From Asticcacaulis taihuensis (GTDB taxonomy: Bacteria; Pseudomonadota; Alphaproteobacteria; Caulobacterales; Caulobacteraceae): a DNA stretch of 64,000 bases. Below are positions 16,543 through 45,761 of this stretch, piece after piece. The stretch lies in contig NZ_FMTS01000001.1 of the NCBI RefSeq assembly GCF_900100255.1, positions 682,001 through 746,000 on the forward strand. The letters are read 5' to 3'. Below the pieces are notes generated by a model, which was not told the origin of the DNA, ran no database searches, and worked only from the letters and a program-made list of their open reading frames with translations. Positions within the stretch are counted from its first letter, which is position 1, and every line of letters starts with the position of its first letter. The position numbers were made by a program, and so were the translations under genes.

Positions 16543-16872
16543 ATGAGCCACAATATCACCCTCACCGCCTCCGCCGCGAAACATCTCAATGCCCTGAGCA
16601 ATGAAGCCGGCCATCCGGTCATGCTGCGCGTCATGGTCGAGGGCGGCGGCTGTTCGGGCTTCCAGTACGTGCTTGATTTGACCGACACGGCCAATCCGGA
16701 CGAGAGCCGTATCGAATATGAGGGCGCCACGGCCCTGGTCGATGAAGTCTCCGCCCCCCTGATGGCGGGTTCAATGATTGACTATGTCGAGGAACTGGTC
16801 GGTTCCCAGTTCAAGATCCTGAACCCACTGGCCGTGGCCTCCTGCGGCTGCGGCACCAGTTTCTCTCTTTAA
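16543..16872 (+). CDS. erpA: Iron-sulfur cluster insertion protein ErpA
   Basis: A-type carrier of 109 residues that delivers [4Fe-4S] clusters to apoproteins. The three conserved cysteines are present: Cys37 in GGGCSGFQY, and Cys101 and Cys103 in SCGCGTSF near the C-terminus. The ATG at 16543 gives the standard length; an upstream in-frame ATG at 16486 lies in the divergent promoter region. A branched palindrome begins at the stop codon (16871), separating it from xthA. Confidence 0.95.
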
Positions 16873-17040
16873 GCAAGTAAGAAACCCCACCACCAACGCG
16901 CAAGCGCGTCGGTCCCCCTCCCCGGTAAACCGGGGAGATACAAGATGTTTGCCTCACAATTGTACCTCCCCAACTTGTTGGGGAGGGGGACCGCGCCTCA
17001 CTTGAGGCGTGGTGGTGGGGGTTCTTGCTTTCTTTCTCTT
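16871..17040. repeat. Branched palindromic repeat, copy 1
   Basis: A 170-bp element filling most of the erpA-xthA gap. Outer arms 16871-16877 and 17034-17040 are perfect complements. Inside them lie a CCCCACCACC / GGTGGTGGGG pair and a GGTCCCCCTCCCC / GGGGAGGGGGACC pair. Each arm also contains its own hairpin (for example the CCCCGGTAAACCGGGG and CCCCAACTTGTTGGGG units). The predicted fold is a long stem with side hairpins, like a cruciform. Copies 2 and 3 are at 42060-42208 and 44889-45042. Confidence 0.85.
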
Positions 17041-42059: not shown

Positions 42060-42208
42060 AAGTAAGATACCCAACCACCACGCCCTCCGGGCGCGGTCCC
42101 CCTCCCCGGCATAGCCGGGGAGGTACAAGTAAAGCAAAATTGTACCTCCCCACCTCTGGTGGGGAGGGGGACCATGAGCGAAGCGAATGGTGGTGGGGTT
42201 TCTTACTT
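42060..42208. repeat. Branched palindromic repeat, copy 2
   Basis: A 149-bp element beginning 4 bases after the folD stop. Terminal arms 42060-42067 and 42201-42208 are perfect complements. The inner GGTCCCCCTCCCC / GGGGAGGGGGACC pair and the CCCCGGCATAGCCGGGG hairpin match the other copies closely. It ends 17 bases before the start codon of the ferredoxin reductase gene, so it also forms part of that gene's leader. Confidence 0.85.
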
Positions 42209-43532: not shown

Positions 43533-44246
43533 ATGTCCAGTTCCCCCAAAGTTTTCCCCGACGCCAAAAGTGCGCTTGAAGGCTTTACCTTCGACGGCAT
43601 GACCGTCATGTCCGGCGGTTTCGGCCTGTGCGGCATCCCTGAAAACCTGATCGCGGCCCTGCGTGATTCCAGCGTCAAGGGGATCACCGTCATCTCCAAC
43701 AATGCCGGCGTCGATGGCTTCGGTCTTGGCCAGTTGCTCGAAACGCGCCAGATCAAAAAGATGATCAGTTCCTATGTCGGCGAGAACAAGGAATTCGAGC
43801 GGCAGTATCTGGCCGGCGAACTGGAACTGGAGTTCAATCCGCAAGGCACCCTGGCCGAGCGCATCCGTGCTGGCGGGGCGGGCATCCCCGGCTTCTACAC
43901 CGCTACCGGCGTCGGCACCATTGTGGCCGATGGCAAGGAGATCAAGCGCTTCGGTGACCGTGACTATGTGCTGGAAACCGGCTTGGTCGCCGACCTCTCC
44001 ATCATCAAAGCGTGGAAGGGCGACGCCCGTGGCAACCTGATCTTCCGCAAGACCGCGCGCAACTTCAACCCGATGATGGCAACGGCCGGCAAGGTGTGCA
44101 TCGCCGAGGTCGAGGAAATCGTGCCGGTCGGTGCGCTCGATCCGGACAACATCCACACGCCCGGCATCTATGTCGATCGCATCGTGCAGGGCACATTTGA
44201 AAAGCGCATAGAACAGCGCACCGTGCGCGTAAGGGAGGCTGTGTAA
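43533..44246 (+). CDS. scoA: 3-oxoacid CoA-transferase subunit A
   Basis: Alpha subunit (237 residues) of succinyl-CoA:3-ketoacid CoA transferase, which activates acetoacetate or similar acids with CoA from succinyl-CoA. The CoA-binding-type glycine loop [15 protein letters not shown] and [15 protein letters not shown] are family signatures. Its stop overlaps the ATG of scoB by one base (TAATG), giving the usual coupled A-B pair. It starts 87 bases after the ferredoxin reductase gene. Confidence 0.95.
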
Positions 44247-44887
44247 TGCCCTGGAACAGAGATGATCTCGCCAAGCGCGCCGCCAGGGAATTGCAGGACG
44301 GCTTCTACGTCAATCTCGGTATCGGCATCCCGACCCTGGTGGCCAACCATATCCCCGAAGGCATGACGGTTACCCTGCAATCGGAAAACGGTATGTTGGG
44401 CATGGGCCCGTTCCCCTATGAGGACGAGATCGACGCCGATCTGATCAATGCCGGTAAGCAGACCATCACCGAACTGGACGAGACCTCTTACTTCTCGTCA
44501 TCGGATAGCTTCGCCATGATCCGCGGCGGCCATATCAACCTGACCATCCTGGGCGCCATGGAAGTGGCCGAAAACGGAGACATCGCCAACTGGATGATCC
44601 CCGGCAAGCTGGTCAAGGGCATGGGCGGGGCGATGGACCTGGTGGCCGGCGTCAAGCGCGTGGTCGTGGTCATGGACCATGCCAACAAGCACGGCGAGTC
44701 GAAGGTGCTGAAGGCCTGTACCCTGCCATTGACCGGCACCCGCGTAGTCAATCTGATCATCACCAATCTCGGCGTGTTCGAGGTCAAGCCGGATGGCTCG
44801 GGCCTGAAGCTGATCGAACTGGCGCCGGACGTGACGCTGGAAGAGATCGCCGAAAAGACTGAAGCCGCTTATGAAGTGGCGATTTAA
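44246..44887 (+). CDS. scoB: 3-oxoacid CoA-transferase subunit B
   Basis: Beta subunit (213 residues) of the CoA transferase. The active-site Glu that forms the acyl and CoA thioester intermediates is in LQSENGMLGMGPFP. The YVNLGIGIPTLVANH and GGAMDLVAGVKRVVVVMDH blocks are also present. It is coupled to scoA. The stop is directly followed by a branched palindrome that fills the gap to the convergent MCE operon. Confidence 0.95.
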   Translation: MPWNRDDLAKRAARELQDGFYVNLGIGIPTLVANHIPEGMTVTLQSENGMLGMGPFPYEDEIDADLINAGKQTITELDETSYFSSSDSFAMIRGGHINLTILGAMEVAENGDIANWMIPGKLVKGMGGAMDLVAGVKRVVVVMDHANKHGESKVLKACTLPLTGTRVVNLIITNLGVFEVKPDGSGLKLIELAPDVTLEEIAEKTEAAYEVAI

Positions 44888-44888
44888 G

Positions 44889-45042
44889 CGAGAAACCCCA
44901 CCACCACATCTCACCGCTTCGCGGTTCGTGCGGTCCCCCTCCCCGGCATAGCCGGGGAGGTACAAGATACGGAGCTTATACCTCCCCAACTCATTGGGGA
45001 GGGGGACCGCGCCCATTCTTCATGGGCGTGGTGGTGGGGTAT
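44889..45042. repeat. Branched palindromic repeat, copy 3
   Basis: A roughly 154-bp element starting 2 bases after the scoB stop and ending 8 bases before the stop of the convergent lipoprotein gene. CCCCACCACCAC (44896-44907) pairs perfectly with GTGGTGGTGGGG (45028-45039). Inside is the same GGTCCCCCTCCCC / GGGGAGGGGGACC pair with a CCCCGGCATAGCCGGGG hairpin as in copy 2. Side hairpins (ACCGCTTCGCGGT and CGCCCATTCTTCATGGGCG) differ from the other copies. Confidence 0.85.
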
Positions 45043-45050
45043 CTGACTTC

Positions 45051-45761
45051 CTACAGCCCCTCAACCTTCTGCGTCGCCGACGGTTTCGCCATCTCCTGCG
45101 GCGTCGCTGTCTGGGCATAGTTGGCCAGCGCGTCCTCGCTGAAATCGATCAGACTGGTCACCACCTGCGTGGTGGCCTGGTTATAGCCGTCCGCCATCAG
45201 AGACATATCACTCTTGCGAACGGGAATATCGGCGCTGATGAACTTCTGCCCGACAACCACACGGTCCGACAGGCGGATCAGCCGGGCATCGAGCGCCACC
45301 GATACCGTCGGACGATTGCGTTTATAATCCGTCTCGAACTTGCGCACGCTGATATCCAGACGGAAATTCGCCGCCGTCGGGCCACGCGGCTCCAGCGTTA
45401 CCGTCTGGCTACCACGGGCGAAACCGGTCGAGATCGCGTCCTTGAACAGGCCGGAGGCCGCCGAGGTCCAGCGCGCTTCGGCCACATAGGCGACCTCACT
45501 GCCCTCTACCGTGACGATGCGGTCACCGGCGCTGTCCTGCGGGAAGGTGACTGTTCCGAACACAATGCCCGTAGGCGCCATGCCGACCGCACGCCCGGCG
45601 GTGCCCGCGGCCTCGGCCTTCTGTTCCACCAGTTCCGGCGTATAGCCGAAGCGGTAAAGCTGGGCCGGCTTGGTCTTGGGCAGCAGGGTCACGCAGCCGC
45701 TCAAGGCCAGGGCGGCGCTCGCAAGGGCAGCGACCTTCACGGTCTTCATAAGCGCACTCAT
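45051..45761 (-). CDS. ABC-type transport auxiliary lipoprotein of an MCE system
   Basis: A 236-residue lipoprotein with a type II signal: the lipobox LSGC places the lipidated Cys at 23. The mature domain belongs to the PqiC-like auxiliary lipoprotein group found with MCE (MlaD) transporters. Such proteins are thought to sit at the outer membrane and help move phospholipids across the periplasm. It is the last gene of the operon permease-ATPase-MlaD-lipoprotein, and its start overlaps the MlaD stop by 4 bases (ATGA). A start at Met5 is also possible. Confidence 0.86.
   Translation of the reverse strand: MSALMKTVKVAALASAALALSGCVTLLPKTKPAQLYRFGYTPELVEQKAEAAGTAGRAVGMAPTGIVFGTVTFPQDSAGDRIVTVEGSEVAYVAEARWTSAASGLFKDAISTGFARGSQTVTLEPRGPTAANFRLDISVRKFETDYKRNRPTVSVALDARLIRLSDRVVVGQKFISADIPVRKSDMSLMADGYNQATTQVVTSLIDFSEDALANYAQTATPQEMAKPSATQKVEGL

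Follow-up and report, generated by a model that had tools for sequence, protein, structure and literature searches.

Palindromic repeats of the REP, BIME and REPIN families (PU Y and Z of E. coli, REPINs of Pseudomonas) are short hairpin units that occur in more than 100 copies, lie outside genes and often form inverted doublets (PMC2817692, PMC3116915). REPs are targeted by IS110-type elements (PMC1525189). In E. coli, BIMEs combine different PUs, and Y and Z2 flank yafM. Alphaproteobacterial REPs tagged by CGTC have no dedicated transposase, are mostly head-to-head dimers and lie less than 20 bp from ORF 3′ ends; each has an unpaired CGTC tag, a stem of 8-9 bp opening with A-T pairs, a loop of 4-5 nt and a CCA tail (Di Nocera et al. 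2013, PMC3733652). The CIR repeats of Caulobacter and Brucella (Chen and Shapiro 2003) are intergenic, with two stem-loops and GANTC methylation sites (as described in PMC2229807). Here we describe a repeat family of Asticcacaulis that behaves like REP, BIME and REPIN elements but departs from them in RAYT and in the GTAG tetranucleotide.

The window analysed is a stretch of 64,000 nucleotides of Asticcacaulis taihuensis (contig NZ_FMTS01000001.1, positions 682,001 to 746,000). A first-pass annotation, made from its letters alone, had proposed a dispersed family of branched palindromes with a common core and copies at 16871-17040, 42060-42208 and 44889-45042. All three were found at those positions, and the core is invariant in their alignment. 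Their folding energies of -105.5, -96.3 and -107.5 kcal/mol (copies 1, 2 and 3) are far lower than those of dinucleotide shuffles (z of -9.5, -8.5 and -11.7, respectively). At the gathering score, Rfam 15 matched none of the palindromes in the window, where it reported a single tRNA only.

What had been annotated as one palindrome is two separable units, a point that the annotation did not make. We defined the unit from an alignment of 26 sequences and a covariance model, after inspecting 30 loci, many of which were half-palindromes standing alone. It is about 75 bp long and consists of two consecutive hairpins, AAGnAAGAAACCCCACCACC-(variable tip)-GGTCCCCCTCCCC-loop-GGGGAGGTAyAAG. The outer end AAGnAAGAAACCCCACCACC and the GGTCCCCCTCCCC stem are conserved and the side hairpin is variable; a small inner hairpin closes on GGGGAGGTA, and the outer shoulder, TTTCTTRCTT, is T-rich at 7 of 10 positions (142 units). 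We distinguish four classes of tip: A (TTCGC..GCTCAT), B (CGCC..GGCG), C (CATCT..TCGTGC) and D (ATCCGG..). Two types of unit are distinguished below: type X, CCCCACCACC-tip-GGTCCCCCTCCCC-loop-GGGGAGG, and type Y, CCCCTCCGnC-tip-nACCTCCCC-loop-GGGGAGG. A second, Y-like unit type, CCCCTCCACC/CCCCTCCG-tip-ACCTCCCC-loop-GGGGAGGA, occurs at L003, L005, L024 and C9:122474-125141; it coexists with the main type and at times directly adjoins a main-type unit. Some units contain an insert, either GGTCCCC[GGCACCGGCCGCCCGG]CTCCCC or, alternatively, a hairpin GGTCCCATGGCTnGCGAA...TTCGCnnACGCCAAACCCC (loci of the two: C9:253408, C11:141586, C11:228146, C13:60542; C16:236099, C9:142359; L408-L410), and the hairpin insert recurs in gene-transfer-agent (GTA) clusters of related species.

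All three window copies are inward pairs of units, each unit matched by the covariance model on contig C8 of the source genome (G000). The left unit of copy 1 (16875-16945, + strand; match C8:698875-698945) has the tip AACGCGCAAGCGCGTC, of class B, and the inner loop GGTAAACC, and begins 2 bp 3′ of the TAA (16870-16872) of an Fe-S carrier gene (PF01521); a spacer of 12 bp separates it from the inverted right unit (16958-17030, - strand; match C8:698958-699030), whose tip ACGCCTCAAGTGAGGCGC is also of class B. The left unit of copy 2 (42060-42130, +; match C8:724060-724130; tip ACGCCCTCCGGGCGC, class B) has the stop codon of folD (PF02882) 3 bp upstream, and its inverted partner (42138-42208, -; match C8:724138-724208) carries the class A tip ATTCGCTTCGCTCAT. 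In copy 3, the left unit (44886-44967, +; match C8:726886-726967; tip ACATCTCACCGCTTCGCGGTTCGTGC, class C) overlaps the TAA of a CoA-transferase gene at 44246-44887 (PF01144), and the inverted right unit (44974-45049, -; match C8:726974-727049; tip ACGCCCATGAAGAATGGGCGC, class B) adjoins the stop of a convergent gene at 45051-45749 (-).

Across the source genome (3.97 Mb in 19 contigs), the core GGTCCCCCTCCCC with at most one mismatch has 151 matches, against 8 for the reversed pattern, and the covariance model gives 150 unit matches at E<=0.01. The family is thus dispersed, as annotated, and the forecast of scores to hundreds of copies held; the stems covary, as shown below, and only two of the elements overlap a called gene. 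The 150 units form 41 inward pairs, 6 outward pairs and 56 solos, and such a population of extragenic, often paired palindromes fits the 'REP-like unit' listed among the candidate identities. The spacer of an inward pair lies between -37 bp, where the two matches overlap, and 18 bp (n=41), and not one direct repeat of units was found within 200 bp among the 150.

Like REP, BIME and REPIN elements, then, the Asticcacaulis repeats are short hairpin units, above 100 in number, extragenic and often inverted doublets. A REP, however, is 20-40 bp long with one hairpin, whereas the Asticcacaulis unit has about 75 bp and two, and GTAG is absent from both hairpin feet in the unit alignment. With CGTC-tagged REPs they share the dimeric arrangement, the place near gene 3′ ends and the want of a dedicated transposase, but the unit consensus has neither the tag, the stem plan nor the tail, and its two-hairpin plan is longer. 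With CIR, as described above, they share an intergenic location and two stem-loops; CIR, compared by that description, was rejected as an identity because GANTC is depleted in the units (2 sites, 0.18 per kb vs 1.33 per kb). A text search of the literature with the cores of both unit types gave no relevant match.

Four contig ends of the assembly (C6:300, C6:35565, C11:300 and C17:167136; loci L061, L062, L088 and L108) cut through units, which are broken there by an identical sequence (at least 325 bp at three of the four ends). The break always falls between GGTCCCCCTT and GTAAGTT, in units with tip ACGCCTTCGGCGC. By eye, the invading sequence reads as the start of an IS110-type transposase (METLIYVGIDVSKDRLDV); Pfam gave no recognition of the 44 aa fragment. 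It seems to be an insertion sequence that targets this unit, a putative parallel to the targeting of REPs by IS110-type elements.

The two arms of a palindrome differ by rule, which had escaped the first-pass annotation. Among 149 units there are 121 distinct tips, and both tips belong to the same class in only 4 of the 41 inward pairs, against an expectation of 14.1±3.0 (p about 0.00015); scoring these pairs by alignment, without classes, leads to the same result (p 0.0007). Since the classes were drawn after the tips had been seen, we repeated the test with three further Asticcacaulis species, which supplied 41 pairs (31 from G137, 8 from G145 and 2 from G141; mainly A. aquaticus). Mixed pairs numbered 33 (20.5±3.2 expected), with a class-free p below 0.0002; for G145 alone, p was 0.43 by class and 0.02 class-free. 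Class D tips, found in 10 solos and one outward pair, are absent from inward pairs. Because paired units nearly always have unlike side hairpins, an arm is more apt to form its own fold than to extend one perfect palindrome. The mixed PUs of E. coli BIMEs recall this rule.

Unlike arms may simply be what survives: long perfect palindromes are generally unstable, and near-perfect 150 bp palindromes with like arms would be deleted, with no functional need for the arms to differ. We regard this as a serious contender that falls somewhat short of an even chance. The inner loops agree with it, as they add little length and are not anti-correlated between partners (2 identical of 30, 1.7 expected). 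Outward pairs argue the other way. In G137 pairs are mainly outward, and in 18 of 26 the centre measures exactly 49 bp; units held that far apart would be expected to be more stable; yet the rule is equally strong, with no pair of two class C tips among 26 against 5.4 expected. The 49 bp centre (L228-L247) is itself weakly conserved (TTACGACnGTGGnCGTTGAAnCnCCGCAAGATACC), which suggests that the outward pair may be a unit in its own right.

Inward pairs lie mostly directly behind stop codons, another feature new to this analysis. With genes called by a codon-model caller, and each element slid at random within its own gap as the null, the median distance between inward pairs and gene 3′ ends was 3 bp. 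Distances of 10 bp or less made up 38 of the 47 to 3′ ends (19.8±2.2 at random) and just one of the 35 to 5′ ends. Codirectional copies are closer to the 3′ end in 26 of 29 cases, and 5 of 93 elements lie between divergent genes. In many cases the stop codon comes from the end of the element (TTAAG, AAGTAAG). Between codirectional genes, solos show a weak orientation bias, 22 antisense vs 11 sense (p=0.08), and several of the sense solos lie in a phage-like (GTA) operon, immediately 5′ of a ribosome-binding site.

Comparison with the sister species G109, about 90% identical to G000 in nucleotide sequence, brought to light the occupied and empty orthologous sites that had been named as supporting evidence: G109 is empty at five, namely C8:724060 (window copy 2), C8:760843, C8:817281, C13:86764 and C13:237137. 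The solo unit at C8:760843 is a derived insertion in G000, as neither G109 nor the outgroups G133 and G145 have it. In these three the convergent genes overlap; G000 has gained about 76 bp exactly at the stop codon of the right-hand gene, and no target duplication is evident. The left gene has come to end in a TAA supplied by the element. At the site of window copy 2, G109 and G114 are empty, G133 is occupied by units with other tips and the gap of G145 contains a different repeat, rich in G+C. The site of window copy 3 is occupied in both G000 and G109, with tips exchanged, and in the G109 gap matching C13:75136 there is a long inverted repeat unrelated to the unit. Inverted repeats of this length but of other sequence (CCACAGAT.., CCACGGAAAACACGG.., CCACGAAAAGCACG..) stand at gene 3′ ends where relatives carry a unit or a plain terminator (site 3 in G145, G133, G099 and G029b; site 1 in G119; C13:75136 in G109).

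At four junctions of the GTA cluster (capsid and tail genes, compared with IMG/VR contigs), the site is kept and the unit changes. Between flanks 95% identical at junction S1, one contig has a type Y unit vs type X in G000, and another contig is empty. We rejected the IMG/VR matches as infecting phages; they are Asticcacaulis gene-transfer-agent clusters. IMG/VR lists such GTA-like clusters (L403-L411; G000 C9:121026-125141) as viral contigs, of which L404 is identical to G000 over 9,125 bp. Taken together, the comparisons show that units insert and that related species exchange them; they stand alone or in inverted pairs.

We think it probable that the palindromes are REP- or BIME-like short mobile hairpin units that lack RAYT and act at mRNA 3′ ends. 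Their likeliest function would be that of a hairpin at the mRNA 3′ end that shields or terminates transcripts, because they sit at stop codons, few copies lie between divergent genes, the shoulder is T-rich on both strands and other hairpins replace them at some sites. In a transcript, a pair is predicted to fold very stably, and for either strand the fold would have a 3′ shoulder rich in pyrimidines (GGGGTTTCTTRCTT). At mRNA 3′ ends it could block 3′-5′ decay, and it may separate adjacent genes as an insulator or as a terminator that works in both directions; copies away from mRNA 3′ ends would be purged. The spread of the units would depend on an enzyme, possibly one acting on single strands. 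A scan for consensus intrinsic terminators called none of the three window copies, and the T tract of the outer shoulder is broken by C and R. Against a terminator role count the 11 of 33 codirectional solos in sense orientation, several of them in the GTA operon, where termination would be harmful.

Ranked close behind action at 3′ ends is the possibility, which we hold to be appreciable but the lesser, that these are purely selfish REP-like repeats: they would insert or survive at gene 3′ ends, where they do least harm, and their hairpins would be recognised by the mobiliser and have no function for the host. The position at stop codons could then reflect target preference or purging and not function. 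Gain, loss and exchange are rapid between species about 90-95% alike, the strict copy number runs from 0 to 129 within one genus, and described REPs have the same 3′ bias (PMC3733652), all of which a selfish repeat would lead one to expect. However, at several orthologous sites (2-3, C13:75136, S1-S4) the unit has been replaced by another inverted repeat or a plain terminator hairpin. Replacement by other hairpins, and not by nothing, hints that a hairpin is wanted at those sites.

The hairpins stay paired while their sequences change. Within a copy, 78% of tip-arm positions pair, vs 52±2% with arms swapped between copies; the corresponding values for inner loops are 92% and 57±2%. In class C (30 distinct tips of 28 nt, drawn from G000 and several related species), the inner stem has 51 two-sided compensated cells vs 17.9±3.5 after shuffling, and pairing is lost on a slide of one column, no shifted register coming close. 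The arm-swap test and the two-sided changes thus bear out the compensating changes that had been annotated. The branching is only partly upheld: both tips form hairpins of their own in the minimum-free-energy fold of 19 of the 41 palindromes and not in the remainder, and in copy 2 the right tip (ATTCGCTTCGCTCAT) is imperfect and the fold is a straight arm. Selection on structure, likewise proposed, is plausible given the strong covariation, but much of this covariation sits in whole exchanged tips.

Hairpin-templated repair could also keep the stems paired. Template switching or strand-slippage repair in the hairpins, together with exchange of whole tips, would then account for the pairing in place of selection on RNA structure, an explanation that we consider unlikely, though it has points in its favour: the tips come in recognisable classes, differ as whole blocks at a site common to G000 and G109 and are as diverse as the census showed (121 among 149). 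It fits less well with class C, where length is fixed and four adjacent pairs of the inner stem vary, each with several two-sided changes.

No Y1 transposase (PF01797; RAYT) was matched in G000. Y1 is present in 24 of 149 genomes of the family, none of its 30 loci there has a core within about 1.5 kb, and its presence does not follow unit copy number, G042 having four Y1 matches and no strict unit. A RAYT-driven REPIN, with which the Asticcacaulis family is at variance in this respect too, was therefore rejected. Among the genes between neighbouring units, judged by eye, we found no transposase; they look like ordinary cell or phage-structure genes, three of the phage-like ones confirmed by Pfam. 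The 'MITE relic' of the first-pass annotation would descend from a DNA transposon bounded by terminal inverted repeats, and palindromes of 150-170 bp do look like such elements. We hold it to be very improbable: solo half-units are common and lack terminal inverted repeats, one was inserted alone (the polarised insertion above) with no target duplication in evidence, and the genes between neighbouring units included none recognised as a transposase.

Strict units occur in 22 of 23 Asticcacaulis genomes including G000, in 1 to 129 copies, G042 alone having none; in the family's other genera, counts are mostly zero or small and do not exceed 46. An exact gapped core of 25 bases, with a chance expectation of order 0.01 across the collection if uniform bases are assumed, also matches genomes of Sphingomonas, several Clostridia, Selenomonadaceae, Phascolarctobacterium and Thermoguttaceae. 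In nearly all of these out-of-family matches the tip is a hairpin and is followed by GGGGAGG or a near variant, neither of which the pattern requires. Most of the 16 out-of-family genomes tested carry multiple copies of the core, with genome-specific tips, and reversed controls are empty. Where inward partners were detected they are of type Y (9 X-Y pairs, 0 X-X), so that the arms are again unlike. Most of these genomes are metagenome bins; copies on many contigs with genome-specific tips argue against misbinning. Covariance search of 337 Alphaproteobacteria, with 14 candidates scored per genome, found nothing outside G000, which at that depth does not speak for absence; the Sphingomonas matches show that the repeat family does extend further. 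Plasmids gave one partial match, in Sphingomonas.

By these core matches, the unit occurs in other phyla too, which the annotation had not envisaged. Tentatively, the two-hairpin units X and Y may constitute one superfamily common to Pseudomonadota, Bacillota and Planctomycetota: inverted pairs of unlike units assembled by rule, moved by an enzyme other than RAYT, exchanged horizontally and serving as an interchangeable module of gene 3′ ends. Should the occurrence across phyla reflect descent and not convergence, comparison of those genomes ought to reveal a mobilising system that they have in common. The Asticcacaulis family bears on how REP repeats with no known transposase spread and on whether they are functional. 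It offers sites that are empty in one species and occupied in another about 90% alike, an insertion whose direction is known and whose ends are resolved to the base, conserved sites with swapped units and a simple, testable design rule, that of unlike arms.
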